Shown here: positions 17,055 to 27,373 of the stretch, one piece after another
Position numbering within the stretch: position 1 is the first letter of the stretch
Layout: the number at the start of each line of letters is the position of its first letter
Source of the DNA: Natronobacterium haloterrestre
Lineage (GTDB): Archaea > Halobacteriota > Halobacteria > Halobacteriales > Natrialbaceae
Direction of reading: 5' to 3'
DNA length: 64,000 nt
Assembly (NCBI RefSeq): GCF_900112205.1
Contig: NZ_FOKW01000002.1
Span: 1-64,000, forward strand
The notes under the pieces: model-generated
The model's input: only the letters and a program-made list of their open reading frames with translations
Databases searched by the model: none
Told to the model about the DNA's origin: nothing
Translations under genes and position numbers: made by a program

Positions 17055-18182
17055 ATGACCGACCGGTACGACGTCATCGTCCTGGGGGTCGGCGGGATGG
17101 GCAGCGCCACCGTCGCTCACCTTGCCGACCGCGGCGTCGACGTCCTCGGCCTCGAGCGGTACGACGTCCCTCACGGCTACGGCTCCTCGCACGGCCGGAC
17201 GCGGATCTTCCGGCTCGCCTACGGCGAGGATCCCGCGTACGTTCCGTTGCTCCGGCGGGCCGACGAGCTGTGGGCGGACCTCGAGGCCGACCACGACGGC
17301 CGACTGCTGTACCGGACCGGATCGATCGACGCCGGCCCGGCCGATTCCGACTTCGTCGCGACCTCGGAGCGATCCTGCGAGGAATACGACCTCGAGTACG
17401 AACGGCTCTCGAGCGAGGAACTGTCGGATCGCCACCCGGGGTACGACCTCCCGGCGGACTACGAGGCGATTTACCAGCCCGACGGCGGGTTCCTGGTCCC
17501 CGAAGAGTGTATCGTGGCCCACGTCGAGCGCGCCCATCGCGAGGGGGCCACCGTCCGGGCCCGCGAACGGGTCGTCGACTGGTCGCCGATCGTCGACGGC
17601 GTCCGGGTCGAGACCGACTACGACGCCTACGAGGCCGACTCGCTCGTGATCGCCGCGGGCGCGTGGGCCTCCCGTTTCGTGGACGCCCTCGAGGGTGTCG
17701 TCGTCCCCGAGCGGCAGGTCGTGACCTGGCTCCAGCCCGACCGGCCCGAACAGTTCGGGCCCGATCGGTTCCCCGTCTGGAACCTCGAGACACCCGACGG
17801 CCGGTTCTACGGGTTCCCCGTCCACGACCTGCCGGGGTTCAAGTTCGGGCGATACCACCACCGCGAGGAGACCGTCGATCCCGACGCCTTCGAGCGGGAG
17901 CCGACCCAGGCCGACGAACGACTCCTGCGGGAGTTCGCCGAGGAGTACTTCCCGGCCGGTGCGGGGCCGACGATGCGCATGGAGACCTGCCTGTTCTCGA
18001 ATACGCCGGACGAAGACTTCGTGCTCGATACGCTGCCCGACCACCCGCAGGTCACCGTCGGCGCTGGCTTCTCCGGACACGGGTTCAAGTTCGCCAGCGT
18101 CGTCGGCGAGATCCTCGCCGATCTCGCGCTCGAGGGTGAGACCGACCACGACATCGGGATGTTCGCGCTGGACCGGTTCTAG
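17055..18182 (+). CDS. solA: FAD-dependent oxidase, SolA/monomeric sarcosine oxidase family
   Basis: 375 residues from the ATG at 17055. The N-terminal Rossmann motif VGGMGSATVAHLADRGVDVL binds FAD ADP. SSHGRTRIFRLAYGE is the conserved second signature. The covalent-flavin Cys is at about residue 312 (RMETCLFSNTPDEDFV), then GAGFSGHGFKFASVVGEI. MSOX/MTOX enzymes oxidise N-methyl amino acids with O2 to give the amine, formaldehyde and H2O2; here the substrate cannot be told apart (sarcosine, N-methyltryptophan or other). Its TAG stop overlaps the convergent DUF5305 stop by two bases. Confidence 0.85.
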   Translation: MTDRYDVIVLGVGGMGSATVAHLADRGVDVLGLERYDVPHGYGSSHGRTRIFRLAYGEDPAYVPLLRRADELWADLEADHDGRLLYRTGSIDAGPADSDFVATSERSCEEYDLEYERLSSEELSDRHPGYDLPADYEAIYQPDGGFLVPEECIVAHVERAHREGATVRARERVVDWSPIVDGVRVETDYDAYEADSLVIAAGAWASRFVDALEGVVVPERQVVTWLQPDRPEQFGPDRFPVWNLETPDGRFYGFPVHDLPGFKFGRYHHREETVDPDAFEREPTQADERLLREFAEEYFPAGAGPTMRMETCLFSNTPDEDFVLDTLPDHPQVTVGAGFSGHGFKFASVVGEILADLALEGETDHDIGMFALDRF

Positions 18183-19792
18183 CCGTCGACTTTAGCTTCG
18201 CTCTCGTCGCGGTTTTCACCGCCTGGGTCGTCGGCATCAGCCTCGAGGGCACCGCCGGACGCTTCCGCCTCGCCGGCTGTGAGTTTCGAATCGAGCAGCG
18301 CCCGGAGACGGTCGGCGTACTCCCGAACCGTGCCCCGCTGGCCCGTCGATTCACCGTCAGTGTCCGTTCTCGCGTCGTCGTCCCCATCCCCGTCTCGGCC
18401 GCCGGTCGCTCGAGCGAAGACGAGTTCGGGATCCTCGGTGACGTCCTCGGCAGCCTCCGAATCGGCGTCGTCGTCGACCGCCTCGGTGTCCATCGGCGGG
18501 TTCTCTGCTCGTTCCTGGTCCCGTTCCCCCTCTTTCTCCCCTTCGCTCCCCACGTCGCTTCCCGCCGCCTCGAGCGACGGCGGCTCGAAGACGTAAGTCG
18601 TCCCCCCGTGGCGGACGAGGTACCGTTCGCTCCGTCGGTCGAAAACGACGGCGGCCCCGACGTCGATCCCGAGTTGTGCGAGTTCCGCGAGGCTCTCGAC
18701 CGTCGCGTACCCGGGTGCTGGTTCGTCGCCCGCGGAGCGGTGGTCGTCGGACCCCCCTTCGACGAACTCGAACCCGGAGTCGGGGTTCGGTTCCGGTTCG
18801 TCCGCGGCTCCGTCCCCGGCCTCGCCCGTCCGGGCGGAGTCGAACTCGAGTTCCGAGGGCGGAAGCCGGACCCTGGTGACGACCTCCGCGAACCGCTCGC
18901 GATCCTCGTGGTAGGCCAGCCACTCCCGCTCGGTCGGCGTCGGCTCCGGGTATCGCCACGAGGCGAGCGCCAGGCCGGCGAGCCCCGCCGATCCGAGGAC
19001 CAGCAACAGTGGCCCGCCGATCGTCCGCGTCGGCCCGACGGTCTCCGGGACGACCACCGTCTCGTACTCCTCGCCGTGGTCCTCCCGGTACCCCACTTCG
19101 TCGTCGACCGAGTACGTACTGCCGTCGTACTCGATGTCGACCGCGTAGCCGTCGCTCGCGGCCCGGTACTCGCCCTCGATTTCGCCTTCGATCTCCCGGT
19201 CGACCGCGAGGTAAATCTCCGTCGTGCCGGGGCTGGCCCCGAGGTCGCTCTCGATCTCGTCGATCTCGGCCGCGACCTCGGGGACGTCGACGGTGAACGC
19301 CGCGGCGACGTCCTCACCCGGCGCGACGTCGGGTTCGCTCGCCGACGCGAGTTCCTCCCGCTGGCTCCAGTAGACCGTCTCGGTCTCGGGATCGACGGCC
19401 CGGTAGACGAGTTCGACCGTCACGTCAACCTCCACGTTCCGGGCGCTGTCGGCCTCGTATCCCCCGACGAACTCCCCCTCGAGTTCCGGGGTGATCGCCG
19501 TATAGTACAGCGGTTCGTTCTCGAGGACGGTCCCGTTCGCATGGACGGGCGTCGACTCGGTTACGGTCGCCCCGTGGGAGAGCTCCCCCGTGGCGGTCCA
19601 GGCGGGCTCGAGTCGCTGTTCCGTCTTCTCGTCCGGAGCGGCGTACGCGCCGTAGCTCACCCACGCGCCGATCAGAACGAGTGCGACCGCGACGACGACG
19701 AGCGCCGTCCGGTACTCCGCGAGCAGCGCGCGGAACTTCAGTCGCCTGGCGGTCCCCTCCGTCGGTGTCGCGTCGTCGGTGTCCGTCTGCAT
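18179..19792 (-). CDS. DUF5305-family membrane-anchored surface protein
   Basis: Starting at the ATG at 19792 (MQTDTDDATPTEG), 537 residues. A TM at about 28-48 (TALVVVAVALVLIGAWVS) precedes an extracellular beta-rich DUF5305 domain (WTATGELSHGATVTESTPV; VEVDVTVELVYRAVDPETE; VPETVGPTRTIGG). A second TM near 280 (LLLVLGSAGLAGLALASW) leads into a cytoplasmic region with a small domain (QLGIDVGAAVVFDRRSERYL) and a very acidic tail. It lies two bases downstream of the signal peptidase gene, clearly one operon. DUF5305 proteins commonly accompany this signal peptidase type in haloarchaea. Function unknown; a role in assembling or anchoring exported subunits is an inference. Confidence 0.8.
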   Translation of the reverse strand: MQTDTDDATPTEGTARRLKFRALLAEYRTALVVVAVALVLIGAWVSYGAYAAPDEKTEQRLEPAWTATGELSHGATVTESTPVHANGTVLENEPLYYTAITPELEGEFVGGYEADSARNVEVDVTVELVYRAVDPETETVYWSQREELASASEPDVAPGEDVAAAFTVDVPEVAAEIDEIESDLGASPGTTEIYLAVDREIEGEIEGEYRAASDGYAVDIEYDGSTYSVDDEVGYREDHGEEYETVVVPETVGPTRTIGGPLLLVLGSAGLAGLALASWRYPEPTPTEREWLAYHEDRERFAEVVTRVRLPPSELEFDSARTGEAGDGAADEPEPNPDSGFEFVEGGSDDHRSAGDEPAPGYATVESLAELAQLGIDVGAAVVFDRRSERYLVRHGGTTYVFEPPSLEAAGSDVGSEGEKEGERDQERAENPPMDTEAVDDDADSEAAEDVTEDPELVFARATGGRDGDGDDDARTDTDGESTGQRGTVREYADRLRALLDSKLTAGEAEASGGALEADADDPGGENRDESEAKVDG

Positions 19793-19794
19793 GG

Positions 19795-21003
19795 TCAGGT
19801 GTTCTCCCGCGGTGTCCGCGAGTACGTCGTATCGGTTCCTCGCCGATTCTGCCGCCGATCCGTCGCCCGTCGCCGTCGCGTCCGTTCCCGGCGTGCCCGC
19901 GGGTTGCCGGGCCCCAGCAGGACGCGCCCGAGGAGGTAGACGCCGCCCCCGAGCAGGGAGACGACGGCGACGAACGGGAGCCAGGGGTGGAGGTCGTACA
20001 GCGCGTCGAGCACCGGTAGCGGGAGGACGTACAGGTAGCGGTGTTCGGTGACGTAGGTCGGGTAGTAGCCGGTCTCGTCGGGTGCCGTGATCGAAACGGT
20101 CGTTTCGGCGGTCTCCCTGGGTCCGACGACCGTCGGCCCCTGCTCGGTGTCGACCCCCTGCCCGCCGGGCTCGAGGTAGGTGACGACCGGGACGAATCCG
20201 CCGTTTCCGATCGCGTACGGGATCTCGGCGGTCGTCCCGCGTTCGATCACCAGCGGCCGATCGGAGTCGAACTCCGCGCTGACGACGTCGTAGGAGTGGG
20301 TGCCGGCGGGCGCGACCATCGCCGCCGTGGCGGCGACGACGACCAGCAGGGCGAACGCCCCCGCGAGCAGTCGCGGATCGACGCCCACCTCCTCGCCGCG
20401 TCCGCGGGATCGGTCCGGCGAGGAGCCGGCGTCGGGGCGGCGTCGCTCCCGGATCGTCTCGACGGCGTAGAGGACGAGCGACACGGCCAGCAGCATGTAC
20501 GCGAGCCCCGTCGTCCCGAGAAAGGCCCGGAGACCGAACGTGACCGCGAGCCACCGCTGGGCGCGCTCGAGGCCCTCGCCGATCCCCATCACGGCGGTCC
20601 CGAGGCTCGGGATCGTGACCACGTCGCCGTTCACCTGGAGGGCGGTGGCGACGATCTGGCCGTCCTGGACGACCGGCTCGCCGCTGTCCTGGTCGGTAAA
20701 CGGGTTCGCGTCCCCGCGGGTGACGTACCCCCGGTCGGTCACCTCGACGATCCGGTGGGTCGTCAGTCCGCCGCCCTCGATCTCCTCGGCCTCGAAGACG
20801 ACGACGTCGCCGACCTCCGGTTCGCCCGCCAGTTCGCTTGGCACCGCGACGAACCCGTCGCCGGTCTCGATCGTCGGCTCCATGCTCCCGGTCTCGACGA
20901 ACCCGAGCAGGATCGGCTGGCCGAGCAACTGGCCGGCCAGCAACGCGACGAGCACGATGGCTAGGAGTCCCTGGCCCCCACGACTCACCCCCCGTCGAAT
21001 CAT
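19795..21003 (-). CDS. Signal peptidase I of the archaeal/SipW (Ser-His) type
   Basis: 402 residues. An N-terminal TM is followed by box B with the nucleophile Ser40 (ETGSMEPTIETGD) and by His83 (TTHRIVEV), the ER/archaeal/SipW-type catalytic His replacing the bacterial Lys. YVTRGDANPFTD (residues 94-104) contributes the acidic residues. Three more TMs and a beta-rich extracellular insertion at about 225-320 (THSYDVVSAEFDSDRPLVIE) make it about twice the usual core size, so it may be more than a housekeeping peptidase. It cleaves exported preproteins at the membrane. Gene order (DUF5305 downstream, DUF1102 genes upstream) suggests it serves those proteins, like SipW for TasA. Confidence 0.88.
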   Translation of the reverse strand: MIRRGVSRGGQGLLAIVLVALLAGQLLGQPILLGFVETGSMEPTIETGDGFVAVPSELAGEPEVGDVVVFEAEEIEGGGLTTHRIVEVTDRGYVTRGDANPFTDQDSGEPVVQDGQIVATALQVNGDVVTIPSLGTAVMGIGEGLERAQRWLAVTFGLRAFLGTTGLAYMLLAVSLVLYAVETIRERRRPDAGSSPDRSRGRGEEVGVDPRLLAGAFALLVVVAATAAMVAPAGTHSYDVVSAEFDSDRPLVIERGTTAEIPYAIGNGGFVPVVTYLEPGGQGVDTEQGPTVVGPRETAETTVSITAPDETGYYPTYVTEHRYLYVLPLPVLDALYDLHPWLPFVAVVSLLGGGVYLLGRVLLGPGNPRARRERTRRRRATDRRQNRRGTDTTYSRTPRENT

Positions 21004-21073
21004 TCCCAGATCGGATCAATCACGTTGTGTCATTTGAATTTTAGGGTATCTGATCTGTATTGCCTCCGATAGC

Positions 21074-22342
21074 TCACGTCCGCGTTCGAACGAAGCGGAC
21101 GCCGAGCAGGGCGGCGATGAACCCGAGACCGACGATACCCAGCGCCAGGAAGGGCATCCCGTCGGCCGGCCCGGACTCCTCGCGGTCCGCTTTCGATTCG
21201 TCGGTCCCGTCTTCGTCAGCGTCCCGATCCTCGGGGTCGTCCCCGGGAGCCGTCTCGTCGGAGTCCGGTTTCTCCCCCTCGAGGGCGACGACGTACTCCG
21301 CAGTCGGGTCGGCGGGAATCACGTACTCGAGCGTCGACTCGGTCCCGGCGACCTGCTCGATCTCGCCGTCGGTCCAGGTCTTCCCGTCGTAGCGCCAGAC
21401 GGTGACCCCGGTTCCGCCGGTTCCCGTGCGATCGAGCCGCGAGCGGTCGACGACGAGGCGGTAGGAGACGTTCTCGAGGGCGTCCCCGTCCCCGGACGCG
21501 TTCTCGAGGGCGACGGCACCGATCGGTTCGACGCCGTATTTCGTTCGGAGGCGTTCGAACCGTGCGCCGTCAAATCGTTTCTCGGCCGCGACCGCGAACG
21601 AGGCCTCGTCGCCCGCGAGCGTGACGTCGAGGCGGGCGAGGGAAACGCCGTCGCCGAGGGTCAACCCGTGCAGGTCGATCGATTCGAGCCCGCAGCCGTC
21701 GGCGTCCGCGATCGAAATCGCTCGCGTCGTCTTGTCCGAGGCTTCGACGGTTACGCTCGGTCCCGTCGGACAGGCGACCGTCGTGTCGGACTCGGCGTCG
21801 GAGTCGCTCTCGTCGTCCTCGTCCTCGTCGGGTACTTTCCCGTGGATCGTGATTTCGCGTATCAAAACGTCCGTCGCCTCTTTGCCGTGCGAATCCACGG
21901 TGAACCCGACGTCGATCGACTCGTAGGGCTCGAGCGTCGCGTTGTTTTCCATCCCTTCGATCGAACTCGGGTTCGAGCCCGTACCGTCGCCGTCCGAGCG
22001 ATAGAAGGTGACGTCGTCCGACTCGTGCTCGAGCCACACGTGCGCGTAGTCGTCTCCCGTGTAGTTGAGCGTGAACACGTCGTCTACCCCGGTGATCGCC
22101 TCGGCGGGGACGCCGTCGCCCTCGACGGCGTCGTTGCCCGCGGTCAGGTCGACCGCGAGTTTCCCCTCGTCGTCCAGGTGAGCGTACGCGCCGTTCGGGC
22201 CGTCGTGTGGTTCGGCGGTGATCCGTTCGCCGATGTCGTCGTAGCCGCCGGTCCCGGGGCCGGGGCCGCTCCCGCCGGTGGTGGCGACGACGAGCGCGAG
22301 AAGACAGAGGACGGCGATTCCGGCGGCGGCCCGTCGGCTCAT
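21074..22342 (-). CDS. Exported DUF1102-like surface protein with C-terminal anchor
   Basis: ATG at 22342 (422 residues); the frame could extend four codons to a GTG. A signal peptide (RRAAAGIAVLCLLALVVATTG) precedes a camelysin/DUF1102-like beta domain (ERITAEPHDGPNGAYAHL; DDVFTLNYTGDDYAHVWLEH; LEPYESIDVGFTVDSHG). An acidic linker leads to a second beta domain (DGVSLARLDVTLAGDEASFA), an Asp/Glu/Pro stalk and a TM with RFVRTRT at the end. It is likely a wall-anchored surface subunit. Its promoter seems to be 500 bp upstream, at 22884-22925, leaving a long leader. Confidence 0.75.
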   Translation of the reverse strand: MSRRAAAGIAVLCLLALVVATTGGSGPGPGTGGYDDIGERITAEPHDGPNGAYAHLDDEGKLAVDLTAGNDAVEGDGVPAEAITGVDDVFTLNYTGDDYAHVWLEHESDDVTFYRSDGDGTGSNPSSIEGMENNATLEPYESIDVGFTVDSHGKEATDVLIREITIHGKVPDEDEDDESDSDAESDTTVACPTGPSVTVEASDKTTRAISIADADGCGLESIDLHGLTLGDGVSLARLDVTLAGDEASFAVAAEKRFDGARFERLRTKYGVEPIGAVALENASGDGDALENVSYRLVVDRSRLDRTGTGGTGVTVWRYDGKTWTDGEIEQVAGTESTLEYVIPADPTAEYVVALEGEKPDSDETAPGDDPEDRDADEDGTDESKADREESGPADGMPFLALGIVGLGFIAALLGVRFVRTRT

Positions 22343-23102
22343 GGGTACGGCCACCTCCCGCGGGAGTCAGCATCGGCGTCGATGTCGGCGTCGGTGTCTC
22401 GAGTCGGCATTGGCGATCGTGATCGTGTTCTCGTATCGGAACCGGTACGGCGAGTCTCCGGTCGGGACCGGCGCGAAACGTCCCGGAGCGTCGTCGACGT
22501 GGTGGGATGCGTGGTGTATCGATCGTGACTGCGTTCACTGGACCGCGTGTCGCTCGACACGTTCGGGTGCGCTGACCGAGCCGGCTCGCGCCGTCTCCCG
22601 GCACGAGCCGTCCCGGCGCTGTGCAGGTCCCCACTCCCCCAATCCCTGGCGGATGCAGTGGGGGTCGGCGACGATCGGTCGTCGCCGGGGAACGCGACGC
22701 GGTGACCGTGATGGGTGGCGGACACATCGGAGCGAGCGCCGCGACGCGGCCGCGAACGTGGCGGGTGAGTGAACGGGTGATCGATCGCGCCCGCGTCGGG
22801 ACCGCCTCGTGGAGCCCCCTCCTCTCGAGGCGGGCGACGTTCGTGGCGTCGCGTTCCCGCTCGAGGGAAGATCGGCTATCGCTATTGTAATACGGGTGTT
22901 GACTGGGTTTCAACGGGAGTCAACCAGAATATTCGAATCCGATTGGATGTTTAGATCGGATTGATCGGTATAGAACCCACATGATATAAACTTGACCTGC
23001 TTATAAGCGCTCTACTCCTTGTCGGATGAATTCGATCAATCCTCACTGATTGATGATTGCTATCAAAAACCCGCTATAGGAAACGGAACTCGGTCTCGCT
23101 TT
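22343..23102. other. Long leader and AT-rich intergenic stretch
   Basis: Between the minus-strand genes at 21074 and 23103. From 22343 to about 22880 it is GC-rich with no convincing coding frame on either strand, and would be transcribed as a leader of about 500 nt if the promoter at 22884 is used. From about 22890 to 23102 it is AT-rich, with an inverted repeat ATCAATC/GATTGAT at 23035-23054 just past the end of the 23103 gene, possibly a terminator. Some simple-sequence GTCGG/GATCG runs occur near 22375-22430. Confidence 0.45.
22884..22925 (-). promoter_or_regulatory. Promoter module shared with the DUF1102 pair (copy P1)
   Basis: Contains TATTGTAATACG (22884-22895; minus CGTATTACAATA, TATA-like) and, 13 nt further, TTTCAA (22909-22914). 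An inverted repeat GTTGACT (22899-22905)/AGTCAAC (22919-22925) surrounds the TTTCAA. The same 12-mer and the same 13-nt spacing to TTTCAA recur at 24414-24444. Confidence 0.55.
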
Positions 23103-23657
23103 CTAATCACCGTCGATCGCACGTCCAACTATCGTCACCGTTTCATCAACAGTCGTCCCTGATTCGGTTCCCGAGGTATCAATAACAACCCCAGCGTCGA
23201 AATCCTCACCAGGAGCGAGTTCGATCCCTGTCGATTTATCTGTCAGGAGCCGACGATCGTCATCGGTGTCGTAGAATGCGACAAAATCGAGCATTCCCTC
23301 GTATTCGGTGTAGACCACGATGTTGTTTGTGCCTTGGTTTCTAACTTCGACGAGTCGGTCGAAATAATACCGTGAGTTGGACCCTAGGCCCTCTCCCCGG
23401 GTGAGGTCGTCGAGTTCCTCGTATGTCCCGGGGAATTGAAACCGGGTCTTTCGGCCCGGATTCGTCGATCGACCGAGTACGTCGCCCGATTCGTTTTCTG
23501 TGGGTAATGCGTTCAATGCGAGGTATGCACGCTCATCAGTGACGACGTCGACAGAGATGTTTCGATCGACGCGAGCCGTGTTGAACGCCCCGCTACCGAC
23601 CAGTAGCGATCCGCTCAATGTACCAGTTGCGAGACCGAGGATGTGGCGTCGTTTCAT
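23103..23657 (-). CDS. DUF1102/camelysin-like exported protein B
   Basis: ATG at 23657, 184 residues. A twin-arginine-like signal (MKRRHILGLATG) ends in SGAFNTARVDR, followed by ISVDVVTDERAYLAL, the DUF1102 N-terminal signature. The rest is a single beta domain (YYFDRLVEVRNQGTNNIVV; GIELAPGEDFDAGVVI) ending with a beta strand (ETVTIVGRAIDGD) and no TM anchor. Bacterial TasA/camelysin subunits share this plan and are processed by SipW. It lies 47 bp after its paralogue and is visibly less GC-rich than the flanks. Function is inferred: a secreted fibre or surface subunit. Confidence 0.8.
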   Translation of the reverse strand: MKRRHILGLATGTLSGSLLVGSGAFNTARVDRNISVDVVTDERAYLALNALPTENESGDVLGRSTNPGRKTRFQFPGTYEELDDLTRGEGLGSNSRYYFDRLVEVRNQGTNNIVVYTEYEGMLDFVAFYDTDDDRRLLTDKSTGIELAPGEDFDAGVVIDTSGTESGTTVDETVTIVGRAIDGD

Positions 23658-23704
23658 AATGTCCTCTCGCGGTAACACGGAGAACTCCGTGCCCCGCAGT
23701 CGGG

Positions 23705-24286
23705 TCAGTTGCTGTCCTCTTTGGCCTCAGCGTAGACACCGATGGAGCCCGGCCAATCATCTCGGCCATTCTCGAGTTCCGCTTCGCGGCCGACAAATTC
23801 GAAGTGAACGTATAGTTCCTCACCGGGCGCCAGGAATGCCCCATCATCTGCGGTCCCGCCGGTGAAATCGCCATCACCGTTCACATCGTTCGTCGTGCCA
23901 ATTTTATCGAACGAATAGTACGCTCGCGGGAACTCGGTTTCCCAGCCGATCGAATCGAGTGAATCCGAGAGGGTCACGGCGATTTCGTCCGTCCCGTTGT
24001 TGTGAATCGAGAAGACATCGGTGAAAACATAGTTAGCGTTATCGCTCAGGCCGTCACCATTTTGACCGTCAATCGATCCATCGAAAGCAATTTCGAGTTG
24101 GCCATCGTCTTTTTCCTCAGCATACTTGCTGCTCGATTCGAGACCGAGATACGCATCACCGTCGTCGACAATGTCGACTTCCATATTTCGGTCCACACGC
24201 GCAATATTGAACGCGCCCGTACCGACGGCCGCAGCTGCTCCCGATGCCAGTGCTCCCATTCCGATGACGAATTTGCGTCGTTGCAT
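23705..24286 (-). CDS. DUF1102/camelysin-like exported protein A
   Basis: ATG at 24286, 193 residues. The signal MQRRKFVIGMGALASG is twin-arginine-like and ends in GTGAFNIARVDR, nearly the same cleavage-region words as its downstream paralogue. EVDIVDDGDAYLGLES follows. The domain has YVFTDVFSIHNNGTDEIAV and GAFLAPGEELYVHFEFVG, matching the camelysin/TasA-type beta sandwich with conserved N-G and P-G-E turns. There is no TM anchor. First gene of a two-gene operon driven from the promoter near 24414. Low GC compared with neighbours. Confidence 0.82.
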   Translation of the reverse strand: MQRRKFVIGMGALASGAAAAVGTGAFNIARVDRNMEVDIVDDGDAYLGLESSSKYAEEKDDGQLEIAFDGSIDGQNGDGLSDNANYVFTDVFSIHNNGTDEIAVTLSDSLDSIGWETEFPRAYYSFDKIGTTNDVNGDGDFTGGTADDGAFLAPGEELYVHFEFVGREAELENGRDDWPGSIGVYAEAKEDSN

Positions 24287-24804
24287 TGTTGGATTCTCCG
24301 TTGTCGTCGTCTCGTGTTCGCGGGCGACCACACCTCCACGCCGACCGACTCGAGCTCGTCGTCCGCCCGATCCCCACCGCGGGGATCACATCTCGTCCGT
24401 CCTCGGCAAGGGATATTGTAATACGCTCGTGGAATTAATTTCAAGAACGAGTGTCGACAGTCAACCCACTGCTGACCGAATCGAACCGCGAATCCGCGAC
24501 CGGTTGGCCGCTCGGGGCCCGAACTCAACGACCGGTGTCCGACCTTCCGACTCCGGTTGACTCCGGTTCAACCGCCTCGAGAACGACGGCCAAAAGACGT
24601 ATCAAGGAGGTTGAACCGCTCTCAAGTCGGCCTTGAACGACCGTTATACCCGACTCACGTCGGTGGATTCTCTCTTTCTCGAGTATGCGTCCGGGCGCTA
24701 CGGAACGCGAGCCGGGAATAGTATCACTCTTCGGACCAGTTAGTTTCAACGAACTGTTGACTGCATAACTATTTTATCGGGGAACGTGATACGACTTATC
24801 TGAC
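24287..24804. other. Divergent promoter region rich in GTTGAC/TTCAAC words
   Basis: No gene seen. It holds promoter P2 (24414-24465) for the DUF1102 pair, a GTTGACT at 24556-24562 next to GGTTCAACC (24565-24573), the complementary GGTTGAACC at 24609-24617, and GTTTCAAC (24743-24750) plus GTTGACT (24756-24762) beside a TATA-like ATTTTATCG (24771-24779) leading to the DUF7344 gene. The clustering suggests binding sites of one regulator. Confidence 0.5.
24414..24465 (-). promoter_or_regulatory. Promoter module of the DUF1102 pair (copy P2)
   Basis: TATTGTAATACG (24414-24425) is identical to 22884-22895, and TTTCAA follows at the same distance (24439-24444). AGTCAAC lies at 24459-24465. The matching words and spacing are seen directly; coregulation is inferred. 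Confidence 0.55.
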
Positions 24805-25506
24805 ATGGGGGTAACGCAAGCAGGCTCGACCGGGGAGACGGACGCATCGGAGCGGGACGCGGCCGATGGGGTGGCCGACGGCGGACTCTCGTCTTCGTCT
24901 TCGACCGACTCGTCGTCCGTTGCGGACCCGTCCGAGGAAACGCTCACCGAGGACGAACTCTTCGAGATCCTCTCGAATCGGCGACGACGACACGTCCTCC
25001 ACGAACTCATGCAGGAACAGGAGGACGGCGGCATCGACATCGGGACGCTCTCCGAGGAGATCGCGGCCTACGAGGACGGCCTCGAGCTCCACGAGGTCTC
25101 GAGCAGCGACCGCAAGCGCGTGTACACGGCCTTGCACCAGTCCCATCTCCCGAAGATGGACGAGGCCGGCGTCCTCGAGTTCAACAAGGATCGGGGGACC
25201 GTCGAACCGACGCCGGCCCTCGAGGACGTCGAGATCTACATGGACGTCGTGCGCGGGCGCGAGATTCCCTGGAGCGACTACTACATCGGACTGACGGCAC
25301 TCTCCGGGGTTCTTCTCGCGGGGACCGCGCTGGGACTCGGGCCGTTCGACGCGCTGACGCCGTACGCCTGGGGGGTGTTCGTCCTCGTCTCGTTCGGCGT
25401 CTCGGCGGTGGCCCACCGCTACTACGCCCGTCGGAACCGGCTCGGGATCGCGGACGATCCGCCGGACGTCGCGCTCGAGTACCAGGACTCCGATACGGAG
25501 GGGTGA
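24805..25506 (+). CDS. DUF7344-type winged-helix regulator with two C-terminal TM helices
   Basis: 233 residues. An acidic Ser-rich N-terminus (about 45 residues) leads into the HTH domain: LTEDELFEILSNRRRRHVLH, then SSDRKRVYTALHQSHLPKMD and EAGVLEFNKDRGTVE. Two TM segments at about 165-182 (YYIGLTALSGVLLAGTA) and 192-210 (AWGVFVLVSFGVSAVAH) anchor it, so it is a membrane-bound one-component regulator. Such proteins commonly sit beside DUF1102/signal peptidase genes in haloarchaea. Its own promoter carries the same GTTTCAAC and GTTGACT words as those of the surface genes, so it is the likely local regulator. Confidence 0.8.
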   Translation: MGVTQAGSTGETDASERDAADGVADGGLSSSSSTDSSSVADPSEETLTEDELFEILSNRRRRHVLHELMQEQEDGGIDIGTLSEEIAAYEDGLELHEVSSSDRKRVYTALHQSHLPKMDEAGVLEFNKDRGTVEPTPALEDVEIYMDVVRGREIPWSDYYIGLTALSGVLLAGTALGLGPFDALTPYAWGVFVLVSFGVSAVAHRYYARRNRLGIADDPPDVALEYQDSDTEG

Positions 25507-25613
25507 CTCGTGGCCGTTGGCGACCGACGCATCTCTCGAGTAGCTCGACCGATCGCCCGTTCGACGGTCGCCGGGATCGCGGTGGAACGATCGGACGGTA
25601 AACGATCGATCCC

Positions 25614-26426
25614 ATGAGACGGAACCGAAAGAAAGCGAAAACGAGACGCGCCACGCTGGCGATGCTCGCCGGCTCGAGCGGATTGTTAGCCGTCGATACG
25701 CTCGGCTTCTCGAGCGCCGAGGCGGAACGGTCGGTATCGGTCGACGTCGTCGACGACCCCAACGCGTTCCTCAGCCTGACGGAAGACGGGGATGGCGTCG
25801 AAACGGGTGGCCTCCTCTTCGAGGACGAGAATCTGCGGGAAGCACCGGAGACCTTCCACCTGCTGAACCAACTCACGGAGCCGATGACAGTCTCGTTCGA
25901 GTCGGACGCCTTCGAGTTCGACCCCGACGAGACTGACCTGCCGATCGGTGAGGACACTGAGGTGACGGTCGACCTGCCGTCCCTGCCGGACGATCCGGCG
26001 GGGGCGACCGACGCAATCGGGATCACCGCCGAGGGCGATTCGACCCGGATCGAGGCCGAGCGGTTGCTTCGGCTCGTGCCCGAGGCGGAGACGTTCGCGT
26101 TCACGGTGTGTCGTGGGGAGAGCGACAACTGCGTCGACGTCACCGTCACGGTTGGCTGGGACGAAACCGCCTTCGACGTCACAGTTACCGTTGATTCGGA
26201 TGGCGAAGACATGGAGACGTATGGGGACCGTCTCGAGTCTGGCAAACAGGAGACGTTCGACCTGAATTTAAAGTCAGGCAACTGGAACGTCACGGATACC
26301 AGTCCGAATCCGGAGAAAGCGGACGAGAGCGGTCCAGGCGATCCCGTAGGGCTCGAGAAAGGGCCGATCAGCGTCAAACTCCATCCTGTCGCGGGGGTAA
26401 GCGTGACGGTCTCCGTATCGCCCTGA
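25614..26426 (+). CDS. DUF1102-like exported protein C
   Basis: 270 residues. A basic start (MRRNRKKAKTRRATLAML) and signal run into AEAERSVSVDVVDDPNAFLSL, the same signature as the two DUF1102 proteins (RNISVDVVTDERAYLAL). After a 90-residue beta domain (FHLLNQLTEPMTVSFESD) it carries an extra C-terminal domain (VDVTVTVGWDETAFDVTVTV) and no TM. A single Cys pair (FTVCRGESDNCVDV) could form a disulfide outside the cell. It is on the opposite strand from the other DUF1102 genes, 107 bp after the regulator. Confidence 0.7.
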   Translation: MRRNRKKAKTRRATLAMLAGSSGLLAVDTLGFSSAEAERSVSVDVVDDPNAFLSLTEDGDGVETGGLLFEDENLREAPETFHLLNQLTEPMTVSFESDAFEFDPDETDLPIGEDTEVTVDLPSLPDDPAGATDAIGITAEGDSTRIEAERLLRLVPEAETFAFTVCRGESDNCVDVTVTVGWDETAFDVTVTVDSDGEDMETYGDRLESGKQETFDLNLKSGNWNVTDTSPNPEKADESGPGDPVGLEKGPISVKLHPVAGVSVTVSVSP

Positions 26427-26431
26427 TCCGT

Positions 26432-27373
26432 TCACTCCCGGTTGTCGACGATCTCCTCGGCGAACCGCCGCAACGCCGTCTCCGAGTTTTCGTTCTCGAG
26501 CGAGACGATCACGTGATCCAAGCCGGACGCCTCGAGCCGGTCGAAGTAGTCGCGGAACCACTCGATCCCGGCCCGATACCCCAGATGAAGCGGCTCCGGC
26601 TCCGCCTCGGGGTCGTCGGCCAACTCGACGCGGACCGCCATCGCGTACGGCTTCTCGCCGGCATCGGCGCGCCACTGCTCTACGTAGTCCTCGAGCGTCC
26701 GTTCGGGCAGGTGGTAGAACAGCCAGCCGTCCCCGTGTTCGGCGATCCACTCCCGGGACTGGCGGGCGTTTCCCGTGGGTAGCATCGGAATCGTGTCGGT
26801 CGTCGGCTTCGGTACGACGTCGAGGTCGCCCTCGAGGCGGCCCCACTCGCCCTCGAGTTCGGGGTACTCCTCGCGCCACAGCGTCCGCACGGCCTCGAAC
26901 CGGTCCCGGAACAGGTCGCCCCGGTCCTCGCGGTCGACGTCGAAAGCCGGGAACTCGGGGTCCCGGTCGCCCGAGGCGACGCCGAGTACGAGCCGCCCGT
27001 CCGAGAGCCGGTCGACGGTGGCCGCCGATTTCGCGACGTGGATCGGCTGGCGCAGCGTGAGGACGATGCTCGCGGTCCCGAGCGCGATCTCGTCCGTCTC
27101 CGCGGCGACGTGGGAGAGCCAGGGCCAGGGATCGAACGTCTGGCCCGCGTCCCCGAACTTCGGCCAGTAGGTGGGGACGTCCCGGGCCCAGAGTCCCGCG
27201 AAGCCGAGCGACTCCGCGAGACGCGCCAGTTCCAGTTCCCGCTCGATGTCGGGCGTCGAGCGGTTCGTTCCCGTCAGAGGGAACCCGGTCCCGAAGGTCA
27301 GCCCATCACGTTCGAAGAGGCGTCGATACCCCGCGTTCCGGCAGTCGGTCGCGGTCCCGTTCGCGGTCGACAT
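26432..27373 (-). CDS. LLM-class (luciferase-like) flavin/F420-dependent oxidoreductase
   Basis: 313 residues with the bacterial luciferase-like TIM barrel: LARLAESLGFAGLWARDVP, WPWLSHVAAETDEIALGT, and VAKSAATVDRLSDGRLVLGV with the phosphate-binding GVASGDRDPEF. The C-terminal part (GEKPYAMAVRVEL; FDRLEASGLDHVIVSL) completes the barrel. LLM enzymes use FMN or F420; haloarchaea make F420. Substrate unknown. It ends 6 bp from the convergent DUF1102-like gene. Confidence 0.85.
   Translation of the reverse strand: MSTANGTATDCRNAGYRRLFERDGLTFGTGFPLTGTNRSTPDIERELELARLAESLGFAGLWARDVPTYWPKFGDAGQTFDPWPWLSHVAAETDEIALGTASIVLTLRQPIHVAKSAATVDRLSDGRLVLGVASGDRDPEFPAFDVDREDRGDLFRDRFEAVRTLWREEYPELEGEWGRLEGDLDVVPKPTTDTIPMLPTGNARQSREWIAEHGDGWLFYHLPERTLEDYVEQWRADAGEKPYAMAVRVELADDPEAEPEPLHLGYRAGIEWFRDYFDRLEASGLDHVIVSLENENSETALRRFAEEIVDNRE

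Follow-up and report, generated by a model that had tools for sequence, protein, structure and literature searches.

What is assembled at the cell surface where a haloarchaeal signal peptidase gene sits among genes for exported proteins? The question is raised by a locus at positions 18179-26426 of a 64,000-nucleotide (nt) stretch of Natronobacterium haloterrestre DNA (contig NZ_FOKW01000002.1, positions 1 to 64,000), which we call the window and whose numbering is used throughout. Open reading frame (ORF) listing and family scans place seven genes here: a DUF5305 gene, the peptidase gene and three exported-protein genes on the reverse strand, followed by divergent genes for a DUF7344 protein and a fourth exported protein on the forward strand. 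An initial annotation, made from the sequence alone, had set these kinds of genes side by side at the same positions and had read them as a SipW-TasA-like locus, a dedicated peptidase with its subunits making a surface matrix or fibre. We arrive at a fibre as well, of a different family: with a probability of roughly 87%, judged from sequence comparison, this is a divergent Tat-fimbria (tafi) locus, Tat being the twin-arginine translocation system. According to the summary of Galeva et al. (2025, iScience 28:111793) given in PMC12687288, the Tat system exports the components of thin filaments in which TafA is the core; the names TafA, TafC, TafE and TafF come from these haloarchaeal Tat-fimbriae (Galeva et al. 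2025, cited in PMC12687288). The fibre type is thus already known and has a solved structure, and the locus described here is one more member.

Gene content is the first line of evidence. The NCBIfam TafC model, searched against 145 members of the haloarchaeal class, gave 11 proteins above its cut-off, and the surroundings of five were examined. All five of these reference loci carry homologues of the extended peptidase, the DUF7344 protein, the pilins, TafC and a membrane-anchored TafF, and in four of them a homologue of DUF5305 was recognised as well. Compared with the window proteins, the extended peptidases score 220-270 bits and the DUF7344 proteins 140-150 bits. In a reference locus scanned in full (L033), TafA (242 bits), TafC (569), TafE (223) and TafF (572) all exceed their cut-offs. 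Since the same kinds of gene stand at these loci, we read the window locus as a divergent member of the tafi system.

The neighbourhood also recurs well beyond the reference loci. The extended peptidase, searched with the single window protein, was matched in 114 of the 145 class genomes, mostly near full length. Among 60 of its loci from distinct genomes, with genes counted within 9 kb, most hold a DUF5305 gene (55), a pilin-type gene (51) and a DUF7344 gene (47), and TafC-type and TafF-type genes occur in 36 and 28, respectively, in line with the co-occurrence that the initial annotation had proposed to count. Across 20 control regions drawn from these genomes, the six family profiles together gave one match, so the neighbourhood is not due to chance. 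The case named earlier as refuting a dedicated locus, DUF1102 genes usually lying without a signal peptidase neighbour, is not what we observed: in the genomes common to both searches, every one of the 29 DUF1102 matches has an extended peptidase in its vicinity, no farther than 8 kb away for 28 of them and about 12 kb away for the last.

A second line of evidence is the putative major pilin itself. A profile built from 30 pilin-type proteins has one strong match in the PDB, 9p0a (5.5e-31), an entry released on 2025-07-23 and entitled "Structure of Natrinema sp. J7-2 Tafi pilus"; the window pilin alone matches it at 3.2e-10 (phmmer). Foldseek, run with an AlphaFold2 (AF2) model of the pilin, likewise ranks 9p0a first with a probability of 1.00, followed among filaments by AbpA (7ueg, 0.96), the Sulfolobus thread (7pnb, 0.87) and then FimA. 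In the fold comparison suggested earlier, against TasA, camelysin and AbpA, archaeal filaments, AbpA included, are thus among the top matches of a model of moderate confidence, while TasA structures fall outside the top 50. The other outcome named earlier as refuting, folds unrelated to TasA/camelysin, did not arise in that the search gave archaeal filaments, and it supports a beta-sandwich close to that of AbpA. The entry 9p0a comprises 215 residues in sequence and 188 in the model; going by these lengths only, the 27 absent residues would be the signal through GTGA, with the mature protein starting at Phe.

Several results weigh against the tafi assignment. No window protein reaches the NCBIfam equivalog cut-off for TafA, TafC, TafE or TafF, and we therefore claim only the system and no one-to-one names for the four proteins. 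The AF2 model of the pilin is only moderate, with a predicted local distance difference test score (pLDDT) of 64 and a predicted template modelling score (pTM) of 0.57, and its global TM-scores against 9p0a and 7ueg are low (0.36-0.46), so that our statement on the fold draws chiefly on sequence similarity to 9p0a. Generic beta-sandwich proteins (MSP and VAP domains) are also among the fold matches. Together with the scores below cut-off, these would suit an explanation in which the exported beta-sandwich proteins stay monomeric, at the surface or associated with the S-layer, and do not polymerise. We consider this improbable, given that the top match by both sequence and fold is the subunit of a solved filament and that the same gene set stands at the reference tafi loci. 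PADLOC returned no result.

Three of the exported proteins have signals of the Tat type. The initial annotation had pointed to RRKF and RRHI as possible Tat signals and had thought them unusual; both are present, and the TafC-like protein has RR as well, but they are not exceptional, as Tat signals define tafi. Across the families, RR occurs within the first 80 residues in 135 of 137 TafA/E-type proteins and in 32 of 49 TafC-type proteins, the latter being partly mis-started ORFs. At the end of the signal, the pilin reads GTGA/FNIARVDRN (the F41 codon is at 24211-24209) and the second subunit GSGA/FNTARVDRN. A small-small-aromatic-[NSTD] pattern at this place is found in 123 of 157 RR signals of the families and in 1 of 53 other RR-type ORFs of the same regions. 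In Bacillus, TasA has a Phe just past its cut site that E. coli LepB handles poorly and that SipW cleaves (PMC10269814). In TasA, this Phe occupies P2'. The aromatic motif and the gene linkage together support a dedicated peptidase, and we propose that the adjacent enzyme is tafi-specific and may recognise an aromatic cut-site residue in the way that SipW recognises that of TasA.

This resemblance raises the question of whether the locus could be a true SipW-TasA/camelysin matrix locus with Sec signals, a direct homologue of the Bacillus system or an acquisition from it. A peptidase beside fibre subunits, the Phe just past the cut site and a weak match to the SipW equivalog NF046067 would all fit. 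That match is only 38 bits against a cut-off of 190, however, and the Ser-His arrangement does not point to SipW, as it is common to all three signal peptidases of the genome (the other two have GSMEPN and VIHRA). The TasA/camelysin family PF12389 (Peptidase_M73) has no match in the window proteins or the genome, with a positive B. subtilis control, and the NCBIfam family for SipW-type signals has none in the window proteins at E up to 1. The RR signals are also of the wrong type. A Bacillus-type matrix locus is accordingly very hard to sustain, and the family named in the initial annotation is replaced here by tafi, with the surface fibre itself supported by synteny, linkage, the 9p0a match and the fold search.

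Table 1. Features of the tafi locus in window coordinates, with strand and principal evidence.
Feature	Position	Strand	Evidence or remark
DUF5305 membrane protein	18179-19792	-	537 aa, ATG at 19792; Pfam PF17231, 165.7 bits, 1.3e-48
Extended ER-type (Ser-His) signal peptidase	19795-21003	-	402 aa; TIGR02228 match
TafF-position protein	21074-22354	-	DUF1102 26.0 bits; proposed cell-surface base/anchor
GTATTACAATA site	22883-22893	-	probable ATG of the TafF-position gene (22342) lies 541 nt downstream
Replaced patch 1	22925-24208		no DNA homology to congener G085
Second exported subunit (TafE/TafA-like)	23103-23678	-	DUF1102 23.5 bits; TafE 27.1 bits (below cut-off); Tat signal KRRHIL
Putative major pilin (TafE/TafA-like)	23705-24331	-	DUF1102 27.0 bits; TafE 45.4 bits (below cut-off); Tat signal QRRKFV
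Leader and signal-peptide coding segment of major pilin	24209-24480	-	DNA near-invariant in ten loci
DUF7344 protein	24805-25506	+	Pfam PF24035, 96.1 bits, 1.6e-27; divergent from pilin genes
TafC-like exported protein	25614-26426	+	NCBIfam TafC 37.5 bits (cut-off 410); Tat signal TRRATL
Replaced patch 2	25724-26450		no DNA homology to congener G085

The four exported proteins had been described as DUF1102/camelysin-like. Three of them do pass the Pfam gathering score of 22.2 for DUF1102 (PF06510), while the fourth, the TafC-like protein, has no DUF1102 match in the Pfam scan and matches TafC instead; the camelysin part falls for all four with the absence of PF12389. The two short subunits match both TafE and TafA with scores below the curated cut-offs, and the second scores 152.6 bits to the pilin-family profile; their start codons are probably the ATGs at 24286 (pilin) and 23657 (second subunit). 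Profile comparison gives 97.7% for the pilin family against the TafC type and 98.2% against the type of the TafF-position protein, which links all four. In its AF2 model, the TafF-position protein has an N-terminal hydrophobic helix, a DUF1102-type beta domain, a second beta domain and a C-terminal membrane helix (404-423). Its counterparts also end in a membrane helix, making it a natural anchor. Neither the NCBIfam TafF model nor a profile of the reference TafF proteins, with which it aligns at about 20-24% identity, picks it up, and it is therefore named by position only. A fold search with its model was weak, with no match below E 0.001 and 9p0a seventh (probability 0.97), and is not relied on. 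We propose the TafC-like protein as a tip or adhesive subunit.

The signal peptidase had been described as a Ser-His enzyme (S40, H83) with an extra extracellular domain, and this description stands. It scores 57.9 bits to TIGR02228 (cut-off 51.85), its catalytic S40 lies in GSMEPT and H83 in LTTHR, both invariant in 15 relatives, and it carries about 270 additional residues that comprise the extracellular domain and further membrane segments. Relatives 40-48% identical to it are found on large plasmids, including Natrialba magadii NC_013924.1 and NC_013923.1, Haloferax mediterranei NZ_CP039140.1 and other haloarchaeal plasmids, and the module may thus be mobile. The DUF5305 gene, whose family assignment was likewise confirmed, starts 3 nt past the peptidase stop and is probably translationally coupled to it.

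A further question is how the subunits evolve. The locus is 94% identical in DNA to that of the nearest congener (G085), and the peptidase (97%), TafF-position protein (89%), DUF7344 protein (95%) and a nearby aconitase (99%) are all conserved; two patches have nonetheless been replaced (Table 1). The first, with flanks of 92-94% identity, begins between genes and runs to the F41 codon, covering the whole second subunit gene together with the mature part of the pilin. In the TafC-like gene, homology breaks off 16 nt beyond the F32 codon, where the second patch begins, and is regained just after the gene. In the pilin, the signal is 100% identical to that of the congener and the mature part 27%; the second subunit is replaced signal included (50% identity). 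Both replaced pilin genes have a GC content of 0.54-0.55, and the peptidase gene 0.71. Among 16 pairs of loci with peptidases at least 90% identical and comparable subunits, the mature subunits are only about 22-43% identical in 12 (five clades) and conserved in 4 (two clades); some low TafC values (for example, L040/L042) are artefacts of mis-called ORF starts, with DNA blocks that cover the whole gene. The DNA homology block ends at most 20 nt from the Phe codon in 9 of 18 subunit genes compared, a count that is not fully independent, as some pairs share loci.

These breaks in other haloarchaeal pairs suggest cassette exchange, in which related haloarchaea would swap the mature domain past the cut site as one unit. 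The near-invariant promoter-leader-signal segment would be the fixed 5' anchor in this reading, with the genes for the peptidase, DUF5305 and DUF7344 left in place. We hold this at even odds. Alternatively, the hypervariability may be accelerated point divergence under selection, with a boundary at the cut site that arises merely from a strongly constrained leader and signal. That constraint is real, as the leader and signal DNA is nearly invariant across genera down to its A-ending codons, and it could place the boundary by itself. A mature identity of about 27% beside flanks and neighbouring genes at 89-99%, a second subunit replaced along with its signal and the lower GC content of the patches nevertheless speak against point divergence, which we regard as doubtful. 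A search of the genome with the pilin profile gave the four window genes and no further or silent copies, which argues against intragenomic cassette switching; exchange would be between strains. An invertible switch was also considered and rejected, no long inverted repeats being present (longest arms 38 nt at 71%). No donor of the pilin cassette was identified: a contig scan with the pilin gave only two relatives, with 40-50% identity over their best segments. We found no earlier description of such clean replacement of mature pilin domains, in a check that lay outside the original tafi description (Galeva et al. 2025).

The presumed anchor has features of its own. In ten loci from several genera (the window plus L038, L039, L040, L043, L047 and L166-L169), the pilin DNA is almost invariant, wobble positions included, between about 200 nt upstream and the Phe codon, and the signal uses A-ending codons that are unusual in a genome of such high GC content. 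The codon conservation could reflect selection for strong translation initiation, so that the boundary is probably shaped by constraint as well as by exchange. The segment holds GTATTACAATA at 24414-24424 (reverse strand) and an inverted repeat, GATCCCCGC..GGGGATC. With the site listed in Table 1, GTATTACAATA occurs twice in the window against 0 expected in shuffles. Of 84 taf-type loci, 16 have it, compared with none of the control regions; the genome as a whole holds a single copy of its longer form, GTATTACAATAYCC. The element is likely a promoter or operator, and possibly the binding site of the DUF7344 protein. That protein, recognised as such in the initial annotation, has hydrophobic membrane-like segments C-terminal to its domain and is proposed to be a membrane-bound regulator. 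At another locus, L084, two different pilin genes are each preceded by a near-identical copy of the leader and signal with a GTATTACAATA of its own, a duplication of the 5' anchor.

From these elements, a working scheme for the fibre can be put together. The two short subunits, and probably the TafC-like protein, would fold in the cytoplasm and leave through the Tat system, as their RR signals and tafi elsewhere indicate. Gene linkage and the motif suggest that the adjacent Ser-His peptidase would then cut the signal before or beside the conserved Phe of G[ST]GAF. A thin filament may then form by the freed N-terminal strand of one subunit complementing the one that follows, by analogy with the related folds of the Tafi pilus, AbpA and the Sulfolobus threads. 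Position and topology would put the TafC-like protein at the filament tip or make it an adhesin, the TafF-position protein could anchor the filament through its C-terminal membrane helix, DUF5305 may assist at the membrane, and the DUF7344 protein might control the divergent operons.

Identifying this neighbourhood as a Tat-fimbria system also shows that the larger module, in which the gene for a Ser-His signal peptidase is linked to the others, is widespread among haloarchaea. If cassette exchange is true, it would constitute a surface-diversification system around the Tat pilus, for which viruses or partner recognition may be the driving force. Replacement at the cut-site codon, if confirmed as recombination, would make tafi a tractable example of how archaeal surface structures diversify.

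Among known systems, the SipW-TasA-TapA/camelysin locus of Bacillus likewise places a dedicated ER-type peptidase beside fibre subunits with a Phe just past the cut site, but it uses Sec signals where those in the window are Tat-type, and the window proteins match neither the TasA/camelysin family nor, at the required score, the SipW equivalog. The AbpA bundling pili of Pyrobaculum calidifontis come second among filaments in the fold search with the window pilin, but have no detectable sequence match to it. The threads of Sulfolobus acidocaldarius (Saci_0406), third in that search, also have a beta-sandwich subunit joined by strand complementation (PMC9715654); they differ in their Sec signal and in that no assembly genes are clearly assignable at that locus (PMC9715654). 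The haloarchaeal Tat-fimbriae depart from the window locus in the Taf-type scores and the TafF-position protein discussed above, and in the long C-terminal part of the reference TafC proteins, which does not align with the TafC-like protein. They share with it the same kinds of genes, Tat-type signals, the G[ST]GAF cut region and a homologous pilin and fold.

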